DNA of 42,461 nucleotides from positions 1 through 42,461 of IMG/VR virus record IMGVR_UViG_3300044701_002106; one strand, given 5' to 3'. This document shows positions 801 through 42,461 of this stretch, one piece after another. Below the pieces are notes generated by a model, which was not told where the DNA came from, searched no databases, and saw only the letters and a program-made list of their open reading frames with translations. Within the stretch, counting starts at the first letter, position 1. Each line of letters opens with the position of its first letter. Position numbers and translations under genes: made by a program. The stretch comes from a virus.

Positions 801-926
801 GGCCTGCTTGATCGGATTATGAGTGCGGAACACCCCTTGTGGCAAAAGGGATCTGCTCGCAAGTTGCAGGCAAGTTGCGGGAACTTGCGGCAAGTTTTGT
901 CGTCCTGCGAATTGAGCGGATAAATA

Positions 927-999
927 TGGGGGATGCCGGGATCGAACCGGCCTGACTCCGATTATGAGTCGGGTGCTTTCACCAGATAGCTAATCCCCC
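927..999 (-). tRNA. tRNA with anticodon CAU (Ile2 or Met)
   Basis: The minus strand folds as a cloverleaf. The 7-bp acceptor stem is GGGGGAT with ATCCCCC, and the T arm is GCCGG-TTCGATC-CCGGC. The anticodon loop CTCATAA has CAU at positions 34-36. The D arm is weak (three pairs, GCT with AGC) but carries the GG of the D loop. No CCA is encoded. The anticodon arm core CGACTCATAATCG equals that of E. coli tRNA-Ile2, which reads AUA after lysidine modification, so Ile2 is favoured slightly over elongator Met. The tRNA lies 41 bases from the end of the integrase gene, so it may be a functional tRNA, an attachment site taken from the host tRNA, or both. Confidence 0.88.
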
Positions 1000-1040
1000 A
1001 GCGCCCAGCTGGGCCGGGCAACAGTACGGCAGTCCTTGGA

Positions 1041-2054
1041 TCAGCCCTGCCTCTTTTCAAGGACCTCAAAGCAGCGGTCCAGCTCCTCTGATTTCATGTG
1101 GACGTAGCGCTCGCAGGTTTTGGCATTGCGATGGCCAAGCCATGCGCAGATCTCCAGCGTCGTGCGCCCCGCGTTGCCAAGCGCTGATCCAACCGTGTGC
1201 CGCAGCGCGTGCATGGCCCTGGGCATGTCGATGCCGCAGCGGGCCAGCGCTTTGTCGACCTGGTAGTCCAACTGCTTGTACTTGAGGGTCCACACCCGCA
1301 TGTGCGGCATGGGCGGCAAATAGGGCTGGATCGCCTCCAAGGCCCTTGGCGTGAGGCGCAGCACCCGGTTGCCTTCTTTGTTGTCCTTCACGGCCTTGAA
1401 GAACCGCACAGTGCGCTTCTCAAGGTCCACGTCTTGCCCCTTGAGCCGGGCAGCTTCGCTGAAACGGCAGCCCATCTCGCCCAAGAACACCACCATTGCG
1501 GCCTCTTGGTGCTTGCCACGCATCAGCAGGTCGTGGCAGGCCAGCCGCATTTCCTCGTCACTCCACACTCGTTTCTGCAAGTTGTGGACCGGCAGGTTCT
1601 CGGAAATTGGTGGCAGTGACTTCACGCCACCGTGGATCTTGGCCATTCTCCGGATTTGCCGGAGCTTGCTGAGCTTGGCGTTGATCGTTTGGGCCTGGTT
1701 CCCGCGGCGGATGAAGTGGGCGATCATCCGCTGCGTGTCCTTGATCTCCACCTCTTGCACGGGAGTCTGGTGGCCCAGGAACTCAACGACCTGCCTGGTG
1801 TAATCCAAGGAGGTGCGCTCGCTGACCATGCCCGCGTAGTGCTCCTCAAGGAACGGCAGGGCGTCCCCAAGGGTGAATCCGTTCGTCAGCGCAGGAGGCG
1901 CCTCGATGGCCTTCAGGGCCTCTGCTAGGCGCTGCTCAGCGTGTTTCTTGCTGTCGCAGGACAACTGCCTGCGGCGGCCACCTGGGTAGACAAGGTTCAG
2001 TACCCATTGGCCGCTCGCGCGCCTGGTGATCTTCCAGGAGCTGGGAGCGTTCAT
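1041..2054 (-). CDS. int: Tyrosine recombinase / phage integrase
   Basis: A 337-residue site-specific recombinase. The catalytic set is visible: Arg197 in GEMGCRFSEAARL, the HALRH box with His282 and Arg285, His308 in AWLGHRN, and nucleophile Tyr317 in CERYVH. The N-terminal part (about 60-150) is the SAM-like core-binding domain, and a short basic N-terminus may bind arm sites. It would integrate and excise the phage genome at an attachment site, for which the adjacent tRNA is the obvious candidate. Integrase genes next to the RNA polymerase are known from T7-like cyanophages. The ATG start follows a stem-loop (2063-2080) and a CCACGACC leader element just after the upstream marR stop, so it is probably cotranscribed with the regulator. 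Confidence 0.95.
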   Translation of the reverse strand: MNAPSSWKITRRASGQWVLNLVYPGGRRRQLSCDSKKHAEQRLAEALKAIEAPPALTNGFTLGDALPFLEEHYAGMVSERTSLDYTRQVVEFLGHQTPVQEVEIKDTQRMIAHFIRRGNQAQTINAKLSKLRQIRRMAKIHGGVKSLPPISENLPVHNLQKRVWSDEEMRLACHDLLMRGKHQEAAMVVFLGEMGCRFSEAARLKGQDVDLEKRTVRFFKAVKDNKEGNRVLRLTPRALEAIQPYLPPMPHMRVWTLKYKQLDYQVDKALARCGIDMPRAMHALRHTVGSALGNAGRTTLEICAWLGHRNAKTCERYVHMKSEELDRCFEVLEKRQG

Positions 2055-2080: not shown

Positions 2081-2093
2081 TTGAGGGTCGTGG

Positions 2094-2414: not shown

Positions 2415-2452
2415 GGTCGTGGTGGTGGCTGTTGCTCCCTCATGACCTCAAG

Positions 2453-3413: not shown

Positions 3414-3467
3414 GGTGTGGGTGGTCGTGGTTGTGGAAGGGGCAGCAGGGCCGCCCCTAGGTGGTTG

Positions 3468-3647
3468 TCACCGTTGCGCCGGTGCCGCAGCTTCCAGCAG
3501 GTAGGCACAGAGGTTTGAGACGCTGCGGCCTTGATCCATGGAGGCATTTAGCAGCCGCTCGGAGACGGCATGGCTAACGGTGATGGTGATTCGACGCGGC
3601 GACCGTTTGGCGATCGCCACCCGATCACGAAGGGAGAGGGTTTGCAT
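3468..3647 (-). CDS. Small ribbon-helix-helix-like DNA-binding protein
   Basis: A 59-residue protein easily missed because of its size. After a basic N-terminus comes a predicted beta strand RRITITVSHAV, then helix SERLLNASMDQG, a turn with GRS, and a second helix VSNLCAYLLEAA. This strand-helix-G-R-S-helix order is the CopG/Arc/MetJ ribbon-helix-helix pattern, where dimers place the paired strand in the DNA major groove. GAGGAG lies 5 bases before the ATG, the best ribosome site in the early block. It would act as a repressor or partition-type protein in the lysogeny or early circuit; the operator is unknown. Confidence 0.7.
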   Translation of the reverse strand: MQTLSLRDRVAIAKRSPRRITITVSHAVSERLLNASMDQGRSVSNLCAYLLEAAAPAQR

Positions 3648-3725: not shown

Positions 3726-4205
3726 TCATTCGCCAAACCAGAACAGCGAGGCAAACCAGCGCAGGGCGTTGTGTTCGTATTCGTGCTGGGTGAAGACGCG
3801 AATCCAGGGCGTGCCCCAGTCCTGCGCCTCCAGCCAGCAGCGGCTGGGCTCGTGGTGATTGAGCTCCCCTTTGATCCGCAGGGCAGGCCCTCCGGTGGTG
3901 AGCAGGATTCGGAACTGTTCCGGCTCAAGGGAGGCACCGTCGCCGGGCCCCTTCCAGCCTTCGCGGATCTCAACGCTCAGCGGAGCCTCTCGCATGTCTT
4001 CCTCGATGAGCTCAGCCACGGCGGCGTGGTTGGTGCCGTCGTATCCGCTGCCCTTGAGGTAGGCCTTGGCCTCTCGTGAGAGGTAGCGGCCCTGGTCTTC
4101 TTCAACGCAAAAGACGTAGGCCTCGTGCGCTGCTGTGATCGTTTCAATCCAGCCGCGGGCGTTTTGCTCCGCGCTGGTTAGCGGTTCCGTTGCGGTCGTG
4201 GTCAT
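3726..4205 (-). CDS. Conserved-type early hypothetical protein with a DWGTPW motif
   Basis: A 159-residue acidic protein. Residues 1-40 are helical (SAEQNARGWIETITAAHEA); then comes a helix-rich stretch with DMREAPLSVEIREGW. The C-terminal half is beta-rich, with FRILLTTGGPALRIKGEL, LEAQDWGTPWIRVF and a closing LRWFASLFWFGE. I have a general memory of small plasmid and prophage proteins with a similar D-W-G-T-P-W core and FYFGE end, but cannot name a function. The start MTTTATEPL is chosen over an ATG 27 codons upstream because the upstream codons are just translated CCACGA repeats (RPRPRPRP). Confidence 0.7.
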   Translation of the reverse strand: MTTTATEPLTSAEQNARGWIETITAAHEAYVFCVEEDQGRYLSREAKAYLKGSGYDGTNHAAVAELIEEDMREAPLSVEIREGWKGPGDGASLEPEQFRILLTTGGPALRIKGELNHHEPSRCWLEAQDWGTPWIRVFTQHEYEHNALRWFASLFWFGE

Positions 4206-4210
4206 GGTTG

Positions 4211-4250
4211 GTCGTGGTCGTGGTCGTGGTCGTGCTGCTGAGGGCAGCAG
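4211..4250 (-). promoter_or_regulatory. CCACGA-repeat leader with hairpin, upstream of the gene at 4205
   Basis: On the plus strand four tandem GTCGTG units occupy 4211-4234, which is CACGAC x4 in the mRNA, ending 5 bases before the ATG. Immediately upstream on the mRNA is a 6-bp hairpin, CTGCTG with CAGCAG, and above that a GGGAGC/GCTCCC hairpin. No Shine-Dalgarno sequence is present, so the repeat may replace or tune it. Confidence 0.6.
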
Positions 4251-4282
4251 GGAAGGGAGCGGCGCTCCCCTCCGGGCTGTCT

Positions 4283-4498
4283 TCACCCCATCCCCGACAT
4301 GTCCGGGAACTGGTAGGTCTCCCGCGGCGGCGGGTCGTTGCTGATCTCAAACCAGGGGCACGCCATGGCGTACCAGCTGGGATGGGCGGCAAAGTCCCGC
4401 TCGATGGCTGCAATGCAGGCCCGGGCTTCCGCTCGGGTCCTGAAGCTGTTCACAAAGTCAATGCAGCCCTGGTCGTGGGCGTAGACGTGGAAGGCCAT
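4283..4498 (-). CDS. Small hypothetical protein
   Basis: A 71-residue protein that I do not recognise. It begins MAFHVYAHDQGCIDFVNSF, continues with a helix RTRAEARACIAAIERDFA, and carries two Trp (SWYAMACPWFEI) before an acidic-polar tail ending PDMSGMG. The alternation suggests a small alpha/beta fold. GGAGGG lies in the last codons of the upstream gene, whose TAA ends 3 bases before this ATG, so the pair is translationally coupled. The 3' end sits in the leader of the next gene. Confidence 0.62.
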   Translation of the reverse strand: MAFHVYAHDQGCIDFVNSFRTRAEARACIAAIERDFAAHPSWYAMACPWFEISNDPPPRETYQFPDMSGMG

Positions 4499-4501
4499 TG
4501 C

Positions 4502-4837
4502 TTAGCCCTCCAGGTGGTAGTGGGCCACGATCGTGAGATCGCTGCGGCGGAGCATGTCAGCCAGCCAGCGGCAATCAGCCGCTGAGACCTGCAGGTTCAT
4601 GCGCTCGTAGCGGTTGGCCTGCGTTAGCAGTGCTGGCAGCAGGTGGGTCACCGCCTGGTTGTCCCAGCCCCTGGCGTCGTCTGAGTAGTCCCAGACAACA
4701 AAGGAGCGGCCATCTAGCAGCGGCGCCAGATAGGGCGCGCTTAACGGCCGGCGCCATGCTTTGACTGCCTCCAGGATCACCGCCTGCCAGCAGTCATGCA
4801 CTCGCTCGAACTGTGGTGTCGTTGTTGTGGTTGTCAT
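4502..4837 (-). CDS. Early hypothetical protein, N-terminal MTTTTTTP
   Basis: A 111-residue protein of unknown function. After a Thr-rich start it has helices FERVHDCWQAVILEAVKAW, a segment DGRSFVVWDYSDDARGWDNQ, and a helical C-terminus VTHLLPALLTQANRYERM followed by VSAADCRWLADMLRRS. The start follows CACGACCACGACCACCC, and the reading frame above it is only repeat-derived RPRPRP. It is first in a pair coupled to the gene at 4498. No catalytic motif is apparent. Confidence 0.65.
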   Translation of the reverse strand: MTTTTTTPQFERVHDCWQAVILEAVKAWRRPLSAPYLAPLLDGRSFVVWDYSDDARGWDNQAVTHLLPALLTQANRYERMNLQVSAADCRWLADMLRRSDLTIVAHYHLEG

Positions 4838-4842
4838 GGGTG

Positions 4843-4900
4843 GTCGTGGTCGTGGTCGTGGTCTTGCTGGTGAGCCCAGCAGGGAAGGCCCGCAGGCCCT
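4843..4900 (-). promoter_or_regulatory. CCACGA-repeat leader with hairpin, upstream of the gene at 4837
   Basis: Three GTCGTG units plus a GTCTTG variant (4843-4866, plus strand) end 5 bases before the ATG. They are preceded on the mRNA by a TGCTGG/CCAGCA hairpin (about 4865-4880). The 50-base layout and parts of its sequence (CAGCAGGGAAGG and CCCTCCGGG on the plus strand) match the leader at 4211-4290, so the two leaders arose by duplication or convergent selection. Confidence 0.6.
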
Positions 4901-4911
4901 CCGGGATGGGT

Positions 4912-5112: not shown

Positions 5113-5337
5113 TCAGTCCCCCAGCAGGCGCTCGTAGCGCTCAATGGCCGGGTAGGTGTCGAACACCAGGTCCGCCCATTCGTGCCACGGTTCCCCGCAG
5201 TCGTCACCGCAGGGATCGACAAGGAACCAGCAGGGCAGGCCCTCGTCATCAACGGCGGCCCGCACGGTGTGACAGGTCGCCTCCTCAAGCCGTGCGCGGT
5301 AATCCGGCAGGCTCAAGGCCAGGAAATCGGTTGCCAT
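5113..5337 (-). CDS. First gene of the leftward early block, hypothetical
   Basis: A 74-residue acidic protein beginning MATDFLALSLPDYRARLEEA. Its middle carries several Cys, His and Trp (CWFLVDPCGDDCGEPWHEW), which might bind a metal, though the spacing fits no standard finger. The end DTYPAIERYERLLGD is helical. It is the first minus-strand gene after the control region and so should be among the earliest expressed. Its leader holds a GCTGC/GCAGC hairpin and ACCACGACCACC, about 20 bases before the ATG. Confidence 0.6.
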   Translation of the reverse strand: MATDFLALSLPDYRARLEEATCHTVRAAVDDEGLPCWFLVDPCGDDCGEPWHEWADLVFDTYPAIERYERLLGD

Positions 5338-5437
5338 TTGTCGATGTGCTGCCGGTGGTCGTGGTGCTGCATGCGCAGCCCCGGCAACATCTGCAGTCTG
5401 CTGGATCTCTCCGGGGCCGGAGATGATCAGAGGAAGT

Positions 5438-5916: not shown

Positions 5917-6016
5917 CCTTCTTATATCTGTCTTCTGTGTAGGAGGTTGGCAGGGTTTTATCGGGGTAAGAGGTGGGTTTGGACTACGGGGGTGTAGCGT
6001 CCTTCTTATATCTGTC
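5917..6016. repeat. 16-base direct repeat with TATAAG core on the minus strand
   Basis: CCTTCTTATATCTGTC is found at 5917-5932 and 6001-6016. Read on the minus strand each copy has TATAAG, one base from a sigma-70 -10 box, but no good -35 box lies 16 to 18 bases away. They may be host-polymerase early promoters helped by an activator, or operators. Confidence 0.6.
5984..5997 (-). promoter_or_regulatory. Candidate phage promoter in the control region
   Basis: The minus strand reads CTACACCCCCGTAG, a full YTAC-N6-GTAG element with the C-rich spacer of the other members. It points toward the leftward block and lies between the two TATAAG repeats. Because of the dyad the opposite orientation cannot be excluded, but the plus-strand spacer is G-rich, unlike the other family members. 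Confidence 0.4.
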
Positions 6017-6445: not shown

Positions 6446-6504
6446 GATTGGTCTGCTCCTGCCTGCAGGTTGGTCGCTTGGTCGTGGTCGACTGGGTGGG
6501 GGCA

Positions 6505-10857: not shown

Positions 10858-12474
10858 ATGGAATCAGCGGAACAGTGCTACCGGCGGCTTGAAAGCGACC
10901 GCGACCACTACCTGGATCGCGCACGGGTTGCAGCACGGCTGACAATCCCGTACCTGATTCCCGACACCAACGAGCCCGACAAAAATTCCAAGGACTCGTA
11001 TGCCGTGCCGTGGAATGGCATTGGCGCACGCGGCGTCTTGAACCTGGCCAGCCGCATGCTGCTTGCCCTGCTGCCGCCCACGCAGCAGTTCTTCCGCTTT
11101 TCGCTGGATGACGCCGAGCTGGCCAAGCAAGGCGTCACACCGGAGCAGAAATCCGCGACAGAGGAAGCGCTCAGCAAGATCGAGCGCATGGTGTTGCGGG
11201 AGATCGAGGCCAGCAACGACCGCGTGGTGTTTCACGAGGCGCTGCTGCACCTGATCGTTTCGGGCAACGCCCTGCTCTACATCTCCTCGGAGGGCCTGCG
11301 GGTCTTTCATCTAAACCGCTATGTGGTCTCCCGGGACCCCATGGGCAACCCGCTGGAGGTGGTGACCTGCGAGCAGCTGGCCATCCAGCAGCTGCCCAAA
11401 AAGATCCAGGACCTGCTGTACGAGGAGGAGGACGAGCTGCGCGGCATCCTTGACCACGAGCGGCATTTGACCGCCCAGGGCAAGGAAAAGACCGTCAAGC
11501 TCTACACCTACGTCTGCTGGAAGAACGGCTACGTCTATTGGCACCAGGAGGTGCGGGGCAAGAAGATCCCCGGCACTGAAGGCAAGGCGCCCAAAGAGGT
11601 GAGCCCATGGCTGCCGCTGCGGATGACCCGCTGCGACGGCCAGCCCTATGGCGTTGGCTACATCGAAAGCGCTGCCATCGCTGACCTGCAGACCGTTGAG
11701 GCGCTGTGCCAGGCGATTGCAGAAGGTGCATTGGCCAGCAGCAAGGTGCTGTTTCTGGTCAAGCCCAGCGGCGTCACCAAAGCGGCCGATCTGGCCCGGG
11801 CGCCCAACGGTTCTTTCGTCACGGGCGACCCCAACGACGTGTTGGCGCTGCAGGTCCAGAAGTCTTCTGACCTGAGTGTTGCCATGCAGGGCAAGCAGCA
11901 GATCGAGGCGCGCCTAGCACAGGCGTTCATGCTGGCCGATATGCGGGACGCCGAGCGGGTCACCGCTGAGGAAGTGCGGCTGCAGGCGCTGCAGATCGAA
12001 AACAGCCTGGGCTCGATCTACTCAATCCTGACGACCGAGTTCCAGGTCCCGTATGTGTCGCGCAAGCTCGACATCCTGACCCGCCAGGGCAAGGTGCCGA
12101 AGATGCCCAAGGAGCTGGTCAAGCCGGTGATGACCGTTGGCCTGGCAGCTGTGGGCCGCGGCAACGACCTTGAGCAGCTGGTGCGCTTCACCACCACGCT
12201 TGGCAACACCATCGGGCCCGAGGGCCTGTCGCGGTACGTCAAGCCGCCTGAGCTGATCAAGCGCTTGGCGTACTCCATGGGCATCGACATCCTCGGCCTG
12301 GTCAAGTCCGACGAGGAGCTGGCTGCTGAAGCCCAGCAGCAACAGCAGATGGCCATGGCGCAGCAGGCCATGCAATCCAACATGGCTGACCCGCAAAAAC
12401 TCGCCACTGCAGCCGCCACCGTGCAGGACATGCAGATGGCGGCTGAACAACCCCCTGAAGACCAACCCGCATGA
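10858..12474 (+). CDS. Portal / head-tail connector protein (T7 gp8-like)
   Basis: A 538-residue portal protein (T7 gp8 has 536). It would form the dodecameric ring through which DNA enters and leaves the head. Recognisable segments are the N-terminal YRRLESDRDHYLDRARVAARLTIP-type helix (first residues), GARGVLNLASRMLLALLPPTQQFFRF, FHEALLHLIVSGNALLY, and a late AQAFMLADMRDAERVTAEEV helix typical of T7-type connectors. The tail is Gln-rich (AEAQQQQQMAMAQQAM). The stop overlaps the scaffold start by 4 bases (ATGA). It lies at its usual place before scaffold and capsid. Confidence 0.95.
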   Translation: MESAEQCYRRLESDRDHYLDRARVAARLTIPYLIPDTNEPDKNSKDSYAVPWNGIGARGVLNLASRMLLALLPPTQQFFRFSLDDAELAKQGVTPEQKSATEEALSKIERMVLREIEASNDRVVFHEALLHLIVSGNALLYISSEGLRVFHLNRYVVSRDPMGNPLEVVTCEQLAIQQLPKKIQDLLYEEEDELRGILDHERHLTAQGKEKTVKLYTYVCWKNGYVYWHQEVRGKKIPGTEGKAPKEVSPWLPLRMTRCDGQPYGVGYIESAAIADLQTVEALCQAIAEGALASSKVLFLVKPSGVTKAADLARAPNGSFVTGDPNDVLALQVQKSSDLSVAMQGKQQIEARLAQAFMLADMRDAERVTAEEVRLQALQIENSLGSIYSILTTEFQVPYVSRKLDILTRQGKVPKMPKELVKPVMTVGLAAVGRGNDLEQLVRFTTTLGNTIGPEGLSRYVKPPELIKRLAYSMGIDILGLVKSDEELAAEAQQQQQMAMAQQAMQSNMADPQKLATAAATVQDMQMAAEQPPEDQPA

Positions 12475-21659: not shown

Positions 21660-24600
21660 TTGAGTGGCAAGAGATCAATGCCTGAGCAGCGGCGTAGGCA
21701 AATCACGGGCCTGGAGGCGACGCCTGTTCTCCCGGAGAAGCCTGCGGCCAAAGCCAAGGCCAAGCCCGCTGGTCGCCACTGGTCGTGGTATCTAACCCCG
21801 GCTGGCGTTGCCAACGAGGCCAAGTATTTCCTCAAGCAAGCCGGCCAAATGAACGCCGGCTACAGGCCAACAGGAACGGTCTCAATGCCGTTGATGGCAC
21901 CGGGAAGCATGTTTGCCCCGGTGCAATACCAAGACCCCAAGGGAAGGGTTCGCTACAGCACGCCCCTGGAGCGGCAGGTGGTGCATGGCGCTGCCGTGCA
22001 GATGCCAACCGATGCGGCATTGGCTGCCGTCAACCTGGCGCAGCGCGCCACAAACGGCTGGAAGCCTGCTGACCCTGCGTCGACTTCCGTGGGGAGGGGC
22101 TTGGTTGAGTTCAACCGCACCCTGGCCAAGGCGATGGACGCCAAGCTGCCGGAGGAAATGTCGACCTACCAGAAAACCTGGTTCAGCGACATTCCGGCTC
22201 TGGCATCGGCATCTGTTTTGGGTGGCGTTGCCGCCTCTCGCATTGTTGGCCCGCAGGCCTTTGGTTTCTTCAGTCCTGCTGCCGCCAAGGCGGCGCGCTG
22301 GGTTGCCGGTATCGGCACCGAGTCGTTCATCACGACGCTGATCAGCAACAACCTGTCCGGCAACATCGCCAACGCGGTGTCGCCCAACAGCCCGTTTGCC
22401 GTCACCCCGCAGGACGACCGCCTCAGCTCATCGCTCAAAAGCCTGCTGCCCAACGCCGGCGCTGAGGTAGCAGCTGGCCTTGGCTTCCTTGGCCTTGGCA
22501 AGGCCGTCTCTGGCCTTTCCGGCCTGCCGAACGTGGCCCGCAACCTCCGCGAGCAGCGGCTGACTGATGAGGTTCGCGCTGCCCGCCAAGAGACCGTTGC
22601 TTCCGGCATCCAGGAGGAGGTTTCGCCTGGCGAATACCGCTTCCGGGAGGAGGCCCAGCAGCAGCCTTCGCAGCCTGCAGCTGAACCGCAGCCTCAAACC
22701 CCGGCCCAGGCGCGTGACCAACTGATCGGCGAGCCCGCTGCTGCTGCGGTGCCGTCTGAGCCCATGGCGCCCGGTGGGGCTGTGCAAAACCCAGGGGCTG
22801 AGCTGCCGCAGGCCAATCCGGCCGAAGACCCTTGGTTTGACCCGGCGCTGCCTGAGGTTGATGCCGTTGCCATGGGCGTCAGCCGCCTGGATGACCAGCG
22901 CCTTCAGGAGCTGGCGACTGGCTCGGGATCTGTGCTGCCGGAGGTTGAGCGCCACCTGCAGGAGCAAAGCCAGTTCGACGTGGTGGAGGGCCTGGACCCC
23001 GCGTTCATGGCAATGCCAGCGGAGAACCTTGCCGACCCGATGGTGCCGATGCGGCAGCAGTGGGAGTCCACCGCAGTGCCTCATGCCAACTTGATGTCGC
23101 TGGCGAGCCCCGACAACGGCCCGCTGCTCTACAACCGGGTTCGTGAGCTCACAGGCCGTGACTTCGGCGAGTTCACCCGCCAGGACGTGCTTGATGGCAT
23201 TGACGCCCTGGGGCAAGAAGGCATTGCGCTGCTGCCTAATCGAGCTGGCGACGGGGTGCAGCTGTTTGATGTCAATGCCATTCAGGTCGACCCCGGCCGC
23301 TTTCAGTTCAAGCAAGGCGTTAACGCCCAGGGCCAGCAGATCGGCAACTCCCTGCAGGGGGTGTCCAAGTGGAGCACCGATGCCGAGGGCGTTGTTCAGG
23401 TCTGGACTGATCCAACCGATGGCCAGACCTTTGTGGTCAATGGCCACAACCGCCTGGCCAAGGCCAAGGAGTTGGGCGTTCCGTCCATCCGCGTTGAGGA
23501 GCTGCCAGCTGGGACTGCCGAGCAGGCCCGTGCCATGGGCGCCATCAGCAACATCGCTTCTGGTGGCGGCACTGCATTTGACGCAGCCAAGTTCATCCGT
23601 GAAGCGGGCATCCAAGACGCCGCTCAACTGGAGGCATCCGGTATCCCGCTGAGCTCTGGCCTTGGCACCCAGGGCCTGGCGCTGAGCAAGCTCCCCGACA
23701 ACCTGCTGCAGTCAGCCATTGATGGCGACCTGTCGTTGCCGCGGGCGCTGGCGCTGGGTGGCAGCGGGTTGGACGGCGAAAAGATGAACCGCGTCTATCA
23801 GCTCGCCCAAGGGCGGGACATGACCGACCGGGCCTTCAGCGAGCTGGCCCAGATGGCAAGCAGCGCACCGAAGGTCAAGGCCAACCAGAAAAACCTGTTT
23901 GGCGACGAGGAGATCGACACCACCGTCATCAAGGCGGAACTGGCGGGCAAGATCCGCGCTGAGTTGATTGGCAACAAGAACCTGTTCAAGCGGGTTGGCC
24001 GCGGCCGCTCCGTCAAGCAGCTGGCTGACAAGGGCGGCACTGAGGTGAACGCCCAGCAGGTGATAGATGCAGCAGGGACTGCCCAGGCGGTGCTGGGTGA
24101 GTTCGACGCCAGCAAGTACGCAGCTGGCACGCCCATCAGCCAGATGCTGAACGAGGCGGCAGCCCAGGTGGCCAATGGCGCTAAGTCGGCGCCGATCGTC
24201 AAGCGCATCCTCCAGCAGCTGGAAGCAGGCGCCGAGGCGATGCCTCCGGCGGCAGTAGAGGCGCCGGCCGTTGCTCCTGTTGAGCAGGCTGCGCCCGAGC
24301 AACAGCTCCTGACTGACGCCCAGCGCAAGGCATTAAAGAACCAAGTCATCCAAAAAGCCGTCGCCAACGGCGAGGTCCGCCCGAGCGCCACTTCGATCCC
24401 GGAGCTGCCAGCCCGACCCTTGGTCGACCCTGCCGTTGCTGCCAAGGACCTTGAGGCCAATGGTCTGCAGGCCGGATCCCCGGGTGCGCAGGCAATCATG
24501 GACGAGATCCGTCTGGGCACTGAGTACGCCCAGATAGATGCGCGGCGGCAGTTTGAGATCGAGCGGGCCAACCGCGAGGCCATGGGCTACGACCTCATGC

Positions 24601-36143: not shown

Positions 36144-36159
36144 TACGCCCCCGTATCAC

Positions 36160-39977: not shown

Positions 39978-40547
39978 TCAATCGACTGCATTGAACACGC
40001 AGCTGTCGTCCACGAAGCCACCGGGCACGGATTCAAAGACGCACTCCGATTTCTTCTCCTCGCTGACGTACTCCACAAGGTCGACCACCTGGGCCTGCTT
40101 GGGCTGAAACGTCAGGCCGGCACCTGTGCCGCGGCTGGGCCAGGCGTAGATGTCAAAGCCGATGATCACCTTGGACCCGTTGCCCACTAGGCGCTTGGCG
40201 TCCCATGGATTGCGGGCGGCATCAAAAACAGAGGGGCCCTCGCTGACGGTGCCGTCTTTGCGGGTCCACATTGGCAGCTTGAAGCTGACCACGGTGCGTG
40301 AACGCGGTGAGTCTGGATCAGGCTTGGCGGGGAACCAGTTATTGGACTTTTTGGTTTCGCCGTGGAACTCCTTGTACATGAGCTCCATCTCCTCGATCCA
40401 CGCCATGTGGGTCTTGTTGTCGTTATCGAGGACCAGCTCAACGCTCCAAGTGGGCGGCTTGCTGGGGTCGAACTTGTTTTCCCGGGCTTCGCCTAGGAGC
40501 TTGAACCAGCGGCACTCCGCCAGAGGGGTAACGAGCAGCTTGGGCAT
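39978..40547 (-). CDS. Single-stranded DNA-binding protein (T7 gp2.5-like)
   Basis: A 189-residue OB-fold-type protein in the gp2.5 position, between RNA polymerase and the nuclease/primase genes. It begins KLLVTPLAECRWFKLLGEAR, has VELVLDNDNKTHMAWIEEME, TVVSFKLPMWTRKDG, VIIGFDIYAWPSRGTGAGL and TFQPKQAQVVDLVEYVSE. These are the segments typical of cyanophage gp2.5 homologues. The C-terminus VPGGFVDDSCVFNAVD is acidic, but less so than in T7. The ATG follows ACCACGACCAG, another CCACGA element. Confidence 0.88.
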   Translation of the reverse strand: MPKLLVTPLAECRWFKLLGEARENKFDPSKPPTWSVELVLDNDNKTHMAWIEEMELMYKEFHGETKKSNNWFPAKPDPDSPRSRTVVSFKLPMWTRKDGTVSEGPSVFDAARNPWDAKRLVGNGSKVIIGFDIYAWPSRGTGAGLTFQPKQAQVVDLVEYVSEEKKSECVFESVPGGFVDDSCVFNAVD

Positions 40548-40621
40548 CTGGTCGTGGTCATGGGGCCCACAGAAATTACCTCGTATTCCACGGGGGTGTA
40601 GAGGTCGTACGGGAGTCTCAT
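40493..40621 (-). CDS. Possible 42-residue protein between RNA polymerase and SSB
   Basis: An ATG at 40619-40621 overlaps the RNA polymerase TGA (ATGA) and opens a 42-codon frame: MRLPYDLYTPVEYEVISVGP, then MTTTRCPSCSLPLW. Its last 55 bases overlap the SSB gene in another frame. The ATGA coupling and 71 otherwise unused bases favour it; the short length, the promoter-like element inside it and the Ser-rich end argue against it. It may only be an mRNA leader. Confidence 0.35.
   Translation of the reverse strand: MRLPYDLYTPVEYEVISVGPMTTTRCPSCSLPLWRSAAGSSS
40588..40601 (-). promoter_or_regulatory. Phage promoter candidate before the SSB operon
   Basis: The minus strand reads CTACACCCCCGTGG, which matches CTACACCCCCGTAG at 5984-5997 except for one base. 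It ends 41 bases upstream of the SSB ATG. A promoter here would drive SSB to exonuclease separately from the RNA polymerase gene. Confidence 0.4.
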
Positions 40622-42461
40622 GAGTACAGGTATGGATTTGTACCCAGCAGTCCTGGTTGCAGGGTCCCGATATAAGGCGGATCTGAGAGTGAGACCCCAG
40701 TATTCATTTGGATTTCCTCCCGAGCGACCTGCAGCCAGTTGGTTCTGTGCATGTCCCGGAAGGCGCTGTGCAACATCGTATGAAGGACCGTCGCGTCGTT
40801 CGTATGAGTCGCAAAGCAGTCGTGGTTTGTCAGCAATGGCATGCCGAGCTCCCCGGCCCTGTAGATGACCTGCTGGCACAACGCAGCGTCAAAGGCATGC
40901 ACGAAGTTGGCCCCGATGCCCTTGTTGGCCTGCGTGGCGGACAGCGGGGAGTCGACGGGCTGGTCCTGAATGGTCAGGCTGATCTTTCGCCCGAACATCA
41001 GGGTCTGCACCTTTCGCTTGGTGGGCTCCCTGTCAGCCAGCCGCATCGGCCAGCCCATGGGCGTGGTCCACTCAAACGGGTGCCCAGCGCTCATCACCAG
41101 CCGGCAGGACTTCTTGAGCCAGGTCTTGACCTCGATGCAGGGCTGCACCACCGCCTTCAGCTCAGCCCATAGGTGGCTGGCCAGGTACTTGGCTGGAATG
41201 GCCACCCGGAAGGCGAACTCGTCCAGCGGGACATAGCCCAGATGCTCATCGAGCGCGTCCACCAGGCTGTCGCAGAGGCTCATGTAGGAGCCGCCGTAGG
41301 GCGTGGCCAGGATTGGCCCCTTGACCAGGCCACGGTCAATGCCGCGGCCCAGCCAGAGCTCCGCCAGGGCCTTGCTGCGCTCGTCCCCCATCTCCAAGTC
41401 GACGGTCAGGCGCCGGACCACCTGCTCGGCGATGACTGAGTACAGGTCCCGAGGGGTTGTGCCGAACAGGTTGCACAGTCGGCCGACCTTGGCGTCCCGC
41501 ACCAGCGTGGCCAGGATCCCGCAGCCGCTGGTGGTCTGGTCAAACCGGATCGGCACACCGGTGGCGCCTGTTTCCAGAGCCTGCTGCAGGCCCTTGCACA
41601 TCTGCAGGAACTGCCAGGGGTCCTTGGCCGAGCGCCATAGCTCCAGCCGCCCCAGCGGGTCAGCCGCAGCGGCCAGCATCTGGTCCTTGTGCTGCTGCCC
41701 CCAGCGCAGGCGCTCACTCCAGTAGCTGCGGCTGAGCCCGTAGTGGCCGGCCGCGGCCTTGAAAATCCAGTCAATGCCCTCGTCAGTGGCCGGGGCCTGC
41801 TGCTTAAACGACAGCAGCGCCTTTTCGTAGTCGGGCCCCTGATGGGTGACGTACTTGTTCCCGCTGTAAATGCGGCCCCTGTGGTCAGCGTGATAGGCCT
41901 GCCAGACGGTGCGGCCTGCCAGCTCCTCGGCTGATTGCAGTGCCCGCTCGATCTTGATTCGCCTGGTCCTGTTCTGCTCCCTGTCCCGGTGGGCCATGGC
42001 CGCCAGCCGGTTGCGGGCCCGCAGCTCCTCTGCGGTGGGTTCATTGCCCAACCGCTCTGGCACCTCCATGGGCGCCCTGCGGCAGGGGTACAGCCCCTCG
42101 ATGCCGTTCTCCCAGGCCGTGCGCTGCAGCTCCACCATCTCCCCGTCCACCACCAGGGGCGTGGCCTGCAGGTGGTTGACCGCACTGACAAAGGCCGACA
42201 GGTCAGCCCGGCGGTAGTGCTCGATGGCGCTGCTGTCTTTCTCCTCGTTGTCCTGGATCGGCACCCGGATCAGGCACTCCTGGTTGCCCAGCACGCCGCC
42301 GCCATACAGCCCAGGCCATGGCTCAGGCGGGCAGACCATGGCGCTGTGCGAGGCCTTGTAGGTGCCACGCGGGCACTCGCGGATGAACTGCTCAGCCTCC
42401 TCGCTGGGCAGCACGAAGAACGGGTAGCCCCTGCCGACCCGGTGCTTGACCACCTTCACCA
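40618..42461 (-). CDS. Single-subunit (T7-type) RNA polymerase, main part
   Basis: The C-terminal 613 residues of the phage RNA polymerase; the gene begins at 695 across the junction. Numbered on the closed 803-residue protein: the DxxGR loop is DHRGRIYSG near 382, motif A is RFDQTTSGCGILATLV with catalytic Asp497, motif B is KGPILATPYGGSY with Lys570 and Tyr578, and motif C is NHDCFATH with Asp737. All catalytic residues of T7 RNA polymerase have counterparts. The enzyme would transcribe the middle and late genes from the YTAC-N6-GTAG elements. T7 ends with FAFA; this protein ends GTNPYLYS. Confidence 0.97.
   Translation of the reverse strand, partial: VKVVKHRVGRGYPFFVLPSEEAEQFIRECPRGTYKASHSAMVCPPEPWPGLYGGGVLGNQECLIRVPIQDNEEKDSSAIEHYRRADLSAFVSAVNHLQATPLVVDGEMVELQRTAWENGIEGLYPCRRAPMEVPERLGNEPTAEELRARNRLAAMAHRDREQNRTRRIKIERALQSAEELAGRTVWQAYHADHRGRIYSGNKYVTHQGPDYEKALLSFKQQAPATDEGIDWIFKAAAGHYGLSRSYWSERLRWGQQHKDQMLAAAADPLGRLELWRSAKDPWQFLQMCKGLQQALETGATGVPIRFDQTTSGCGILATLVRDAKVGRLCNLFGTTPRDLYSVIAEQVVRRLTVDLEMGDERSKALAELWLGRGIDRGLVKGPILATPYGGSYMSLCDSLVDALDEHLGYVPLDEFAFRVAIPAKYLASHLWAELKAVVQPCIEVKTWLKKSCRLVMSAGHPFEWTTPMGWPMRLADREPTKRKVQTLMFGRKISLTIQDQPVDSPLSATQANKGIGANFVHAFDAALCQQVIYRAGELGMPLLTNHDCFATHTNDATVLHTMLHSAFRDMHRTNWLQVAREEIQMNTGVSLSDPPYIGTLQPGLLGTNPYLYS
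42335..42461. repeat. Right copy of the 127-bp exact terminal repeat
   Basis: Identical to 1-127. It lies within the RNA polymerase gene, codons about 149 to 190 of the open 613-codon part being continuous with the N-terminal portion at the other end. Only one copy should be counted in the genome. Confidence 0.97.

Follow-up and report, generated by a model that had tools for sequence, protein, structure and literature searches.

A conserved ACCACGACCA box close to the start codons of ssb and early genes in temperate T7-like cyanophages

In phage T4, RegA and gp32 act through translational operators that many early genes carry at their start sites, and gp32 regulates its own mRNA as well. The put antitermination RNA of HK022 consists of two stem-loops separated by about one unpaired nucleotide and is located near each early promoter. 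In other leaders, translation is enhanced by ACA motifs and CA repeats, which need no strict spacing and can act from downstream of the start as well, and an ACAA repeat functions without a Shine-Dalgarno (SD) sequence (PMC3879156).

We analyzed a 42,461-nt viral sequence (the whole of IMG/VR record IMGVR_UViG_3300044701_002106, hereafter the window), in which early genes and the gene of a single-stranded DNA-binding protein (ssb) are preceded by a ACCACGACCA box. Judging from sequence comparisons, and with close to an even chance of being right, we propose that ACCACGACCA is a cis-acting RNA element at the translation initiation regions of these genes, most likely promoting SD-independent ribosome loading. 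The leaders resemble the ACA/CA-repeat enhancers of yifK and dppA in Salmonella in being C/A-rich, unstructured stretches near the start, with repeats, flexible spacing, and possible placement downstream of the start codon. However, those enhancers were studied with an SD sequence present, whereas the box-bearing starts lack one, and the core of the box, CCACGACC, is strictly conserved, contains no ACA, and often follows covarying hairpins (PMC3879156).

Distribution and conservation of the box

The record is probably a complete genome because it carries a 127-bp direct terminal repeat (positions 1-127 and 42335-42461); the RNA polymerase gene spans these record ends. The genome encodes a T7-type RNA polymerase, a Gp2.5-like SSB, an integrase, and a MarR-like regulator (Table 1), and its nearest annotated relative is Oinezvirus AP013546. 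Relatives were collected through the integrase and ssb proteins and the products of the genes starting at 4205 and 4837 (start coordinates serve as gene names below) and were then read for the same leaders. The box-bearing phages are temperate T7-like viruses of picocyanobacteria and form one clade, that of Oinezvirus AP013546 and its relatives. The 3' half of the tRNA-Met gene in the window has an exact match in a single contig of the genome collection, from a Cyanobium MAG in which it also belongs to a tRNA-Met gene, and the host is therefore presumed to be Cyanobium-like. This tRNA-Met gene, beside the integrase gene, is a likely attachment site. A different tRNA is found next to the integrase in the relative L264.

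The core CCACGACC occurs 17 times in the window against 1.63 expected, a count reached by none of 100 shuffles, and 15 of the 17 copies are on the minus strand. Seven minus-strand starts have it within 0 to 31 nt upstream: 2414 (0 nt from the ATG), 40547 (2 nt), 3413 (9 nt), 5337 (19 nt), the integrase at 2054 (31 nt), and 4205 and 4837, where it forms arrays. Four exact CACGAC units precede 4205, the last ending 4 nt before the ATG, and three exact units plus one degenerate unit precede 4837. The original prediction had described leaders at these positions, with a more distant one at the integrase and three to four tandem copies at 4205 and 4837, and our counts agree. Its restriction of the leaders to minus-strand early genes fits most copies but is slightly too strong, given a plus-strand leader copy in the relative G002 and a copy in a scaffold gene at 12471 (+). 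This late gene starts with ATGACCACGACC, as does its counterpart in L272 at 37021 (+); directly after the start codon, the string could reflect coding constraint. Of the remaining copies, those at 1529 and 4471 are in coding sequence, that at 21781 is antisense, and that at 6480-6487 has no ATG nearby.

Table 1. Coordinates of the box copies, predicted leader structures, and associated genes in the window
Feature	Position	Strand	Remark
tRNA-Met gene, complete	926-1000	-	Adjoins integrase
Tyrosine integrase	1041..2054	-	
Box before integrase ATG	2086..2093	-	31 nt before ATG; directly after MarR stop
MarR-like regulator, 106 aa	2094..2414	-	
Box of MarR-like gene	2415..2422	-	Abuts ATG
Early gene, 73 aa	3192..3413	-	
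Box ahead of 3413 start	3423..3430	-	
Single hairpin 5' of 3413 box	3438..3458	-	Predicted fold
Early gene, 159 aa	3726..4205	-	Relatives 60-80% identical
Extra CCACGACC in 4205 gene	4194..4201	-	Within codons 2-4
Four tandem CACGAC units before 4205 start	4210..4234	-	Orthologues 0 to 2
Hairpin H2, 4205 leader	4233..4249	-	Predicted fold
Hairpin H1, 4205 leader	4251..4273	-	Predicted fold
Early gene, 111 aa	4502..4837	-	Relatives 66-80% identical
Three tandem CACGAC(C) units and one degenerate, before 4837 start	4842..4866	-	
Hairpin H2, 4837 leader	4865..4881	-	1 nt after H1; repeats directly next
Hairpin H1, 4837 leader	4883..4902	-	Predicted fold
Early gene, 74 aa, weak PHROG 35755	5113..5337	-	G002 homologue also box-preceded
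Outer stem (5381-5391 with 5343-5355), inner hairpin (5366-5379), unpaired ACCACGACCA	5343..5391	-	Predicted fold
CCACGACC box, leader of 74-aa early gene	5357..5364	-	19 nt upstream of 5337
Distal conserved copy CGACCACGACCAAGC	6480..6487	-	About 1.1 kb before first early gene
Gp2.5-like single-stranded DNA-binding protein (ssb)	39978..40547	-	
Box before ssb start	40550..40557	-	2 nt before start

Among the relatives, with the window left out, CCACGACC ranked first of 168 letter permutations within 30 nt before an ATG (26 occurrences, mean 0.80), a set that includes homologous leaders, so that the 26 are not independent events; the runner-up (7 occurrences) overlaps CCACGACC as CGACCACC. In G002 alone, a genome of 42% GC, it again ranked first (7, mean 0.09). 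Twenty-three leader copies from different genes and phages agree on the ten-letter ACCACGACCA, the inner seven letters of which were the search term and the outer three were not: A (-2) and C (-1) are each present in 20 copies and A (+7) in 22, with the other flanking positions varying. At ssb, 18 of 19 loci encoding a protein at least 56% identical to the query have the box up to 7 nt from the ATG (one as a single-mismatch copy, ACCGCGACC), whereas positions -3 to -14 are only 42-75% conserved; the exception, L292, has CCCACGACAGCC. The box was not found at ssb in the more distant ssb relatives L294-L303 and G002. The integrase-leader box is kept in the same place in L261-L264 and is absent there in AP013546. 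Overall, the motif search in related phages found the box kept upstream of orthologues and enriched before ATGs, rather than equally frequent inside genes, which upholds the original prediction on this point. Its emphasis on tandem repetition does not carry over to the relatives: the array is not the conserved part, because orthologues of 4205 have 0 to 2 copies against 4 in the window, and the conserved unit is one ACCACGACCA. Copy numbers of 0 to 4 between orthologues could also point to slippage-prone simple repeats without function, spread by recombination among leader cassettes. Yet single, nontandem copies persist where leaders have diverged, both within one gene and between genes, and do so in genomes of 42% and 60% GC, and this already disfavored explanation is very improbable.

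The more distant relatives AP013547, AP013548, and S-SRP02 are without box enrichment before ATGs; their leaders include CACGACAAC variants, CCAA repeats, and C/A-rich stretches. Orthologues in L124, L125, and L131 keep the hairpins and lack the box. Its absence from some relatives suggests that the letters are specific to one clade or that selection acts partly on a general C/A-rich, unstructured leader. Since several orthologues do without the box, some of them with other A/C-rich leaders, the exact letters may not be essential.

The distal copy CGACCACGACCAAGC is also kept upstream of the early operon in L272 (31651), G002 (27748), L285 (1698), L195 (4816), and L288 (2796) and may be a mark of the early transcript leader or a DNA site. 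A copy so placed, upstream of the early operon, would suit a site in the DNA, an operator or early-promoter element, recognized by a phage regulator of the MarR-like or ribbon-helix-helix type, both of which this phage encodes (the latter as an RHH_5 protein); ribbon-helix-helix proteins can bind short tandem repeats, and the arrays are tandem 6-bp repeats. We nevertheless consider such an operator distinctly unlikely, as the leader copies are on the strand of the gene, including the plus-strand gene of G002, and sit behind hairpins and next to the ATG. Moreover, a homologue of the ribbon-helix-helix protein was found in the box-less S-SRP02 and not in the box-bearing L264, AP013546, and G002. 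The gene itself (3468-3647, minus strand) is one of the early genes; it lacks the box and has an SD-like GAGGAG.

Other repeated strings were observed in the same region. Ahead of the early genes, two direct repeats of ACAGATATAAGAAGG at 6015 (-) and 5931 (-) are candidates for the -10 regions of early promoters, and L285 has a similar ATATAAAGAAGGACGC. Partly palindromic, CTACACCCCCGTA-like strings precede genes at 5985, upstream of ssb near 40600 (-), near 36150 (-), and at several G002 late genes; they might be phage RNA polymerase promoters, and a strict pattern of this type matches only a single site each in the window and G002.

Predicted structure of the leaders

Folds were predicted for 23 starts, each with 75 nt of upstream and 15 nt of downstream sequence. 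These folds leave the box mostly unpaired (typically 0.8-0.98), with lower values in a few leaders, for example the two integrase leaders (0.27 and 0.29) and one G002 leader (0.34). A hairpin just upstream, which had been claimed for several genes, is predicted at 5337, 4837, 4205, and 3413. At 5337 the box lies between the inner hairpin and the 3' arm of the outer stem, a layout that recurs in the predicted folds of L264, L195, and AP013546, where the stem sequences differ. Two hairpins, most of them about 1 nt apart, are predicted in 13 leaders picked by eye, including two without the box (L131 and L124). Because the hairpins were misaligned when the leaders were aligned with MAFFT, arm-swap complementarity was used in place of a covariance model: arms pair at 1.00 / 0.98 with their own partners and at 0.72 / 0.75 when swapped between leaders, which indicates covariation. 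Mean folding z-scores over all sites differ modestly between leader copies (-1.3) and other copies (-0.7).

The double hairpin could itself be the functional unit, as a put-like antitermination RNA or an RNase processing or 5'-stabilizing site, with the box as a tag-along spacer. Its spacing in most of the 13 leaders resembles that of HK022 put, its arms covary, and it persists in the box-less L131 and L124. Hairpin H1, considered as an intrinsic terminator and rejected, has no T-tract and was not picked up by the terminator scan, in line with this explanation. However, put sites are found near each early promoter and not before many genes, whereas the structures predicted here occur several times per genome, one per gene, and have the ACCACGACCA box after them. 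At ssb, 2414, 3413, and the integrase, the box is conserved in leaders that have no double hairpin, and no Rfam family matched the module, only tRNA exceeding the gathering score in the window, L264, and L171. We judge this explanation improbable. A pattern scan of viral contigs for the double-hairpin module gave no further phages among the matches listed, and broader scans gave mostly unrelated matches among those listed.

Proposed ribosome loading and its main rival

An SD-like string (positions -20 to -5) is found in 0/7 box starts of the window, as originally claimed, against 5/16 late genes; in the full set compared, it is found in 2/35 motif-bearing starts against 19/53 late genes. The late genes thus partly keep SD-like sequences, in line with SD usage in cyanobacteria and cyanophages, but the motif-bearing starts almost never have one (PMC6847405). 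The box was also rejected as an SD element in its own right, on the basis of the 2/35 count and of 16S rRNA complementarity, for which the best match was no better than shuffles. Nor is it a host-wide signal, as it is not enriched before ATGs in genomes of the Cyanobium family. In the matched Cyanobium MAG, CCACGACC falls within 10 nt before an ATG 23 times against 53 for the reversed pattern; across 61 genomes of the inferred host family, the tandem form precedes an ATG 3 times against 17 for the reversed control, and within the genus the box before an ATG is rarer than its reversal.

Proximity to the start codon, orientation with the gene strand, the missing SD sequence, and predicted single-strandedness together favor an RNA element at translation initiation. 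A different explanation is that the copies are clustered recognition sites for a T7-type primase (5'-GGTC, read on the opposite strand) in lagging-strand synthesis. Although GGTCGTGG contains GGTC and the comparison detected a primase-helicase homologue in AP013547 and the box-bearing relatives, and none in AP013548 or S-SRP02, such sites would leave start-codon proximity, hairpin context, conservation at ssb, and gene-following orientation in G002 unexplained, and we regard them as extremely improbable. The original prediction of a shared translational control or RNA-binding target is partly borne out: conservation across genes and phages, strand, start proximity, SD absence, and predicted unpairedness all support a shared, sequence-specific element at initiation regions. 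Its other part, a protein target or control site rather than constitutive loading, is hypothetical, and no trans-acting factor was found.

The main rival to ribosome loading is a translational operator, at which a phage or host RNA-binding protein would bind ACCACGACCA and shut off early genes and ssb later in infection. The box is common to these genes, near the start, sequence specific, and single stranded beside hairpins, and its lack of use in host genes fits a phage-specific reader. As with the targets of T4 RegA and gp32, it is shared by early-gene starts, and ssb bears it just as gp32 regulates itself; the T4 targets have another sequence, and repression in the box-bearing phages is hypothetical. 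No gene clearly follows the box, since window genes whose homologues are confined to box-bearing relatives are few and either small or phylogeny confounded.

The same leader also occurs in an unrelated phage. Contig 3300017700_000894, 63 kb long, encodes tail and head proteins of the siphophage type and carries CACGACC directly before an ATG 13 times on one strand, against 0 for the reversed control. Homologue comparison found no convincing gene shared with the T7-like box phages, which also counts against the operator, and the database relatives of the contig's proteins come from phages that infect a variety of other bacteria. Should its host lie outside the cyanobacteria, such sharing of the box would suggest a general ribosome property. 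Ribosome loading is preferred over a repressor because this unrelated phage has the same leaders without shared genes and because loosely spaced C/A-rich enhancers are documented (PMC3879156); an operator, though a serious contender, seems to us unlikely.

Under ribosome loading, ACCACGACCA would be held mostly single stranded, often just after one or two hairpins, would stand in for the missing SD sequence, and would promote SD-independent loading as known C/A-rich translation enhancers do; the tandem arrays would be expansions of the ACCACGACCA unit. The conservation, position, and orientation of the box, the absence of SD, and the covarying hairpins are established at the sequence level. 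We infer from them that the box is part of its gene's transcript, that it acts on translation and raises it, and that its reader is the 30S subunit or protein S1. An A+C content of 0.64-0.95 in the last 22 nt, mostly unpaired folds, and distances of 0-31 nt agree with an enhancer of this kind; the conserved core ACCACGACCA has no ACA triplet. Counting against loading are this exact core without ACA, the ATG distance of 0 to about 31 nt, the lack of host-family use before ATGs, the absence of 16S pairing beyond chance, and the conserved copy at 6480-6487 (-), about 1.1 kb from any same-strand start. A further interpretation, possible but doubtful, is that of an SD-independent, sequence-specific initiation box used by phages and not by host genes, possibly convergent in unrelated phages and read by a conserved ribosome feature or a phage-specific factor. 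A literature search with CCACGACC gave no relevant paper among the 15 matches listed of 1,009.

SD-less ribosome recruitment in cyanobacteria is unsettled, and an exact box at dozens of phage starts makes the question testable with reporters. If the box is an operator instead, the early genes that carry it would make up a translational regulon in T7-like phages. The box could also serve as a start-site signal in annotating these phages.
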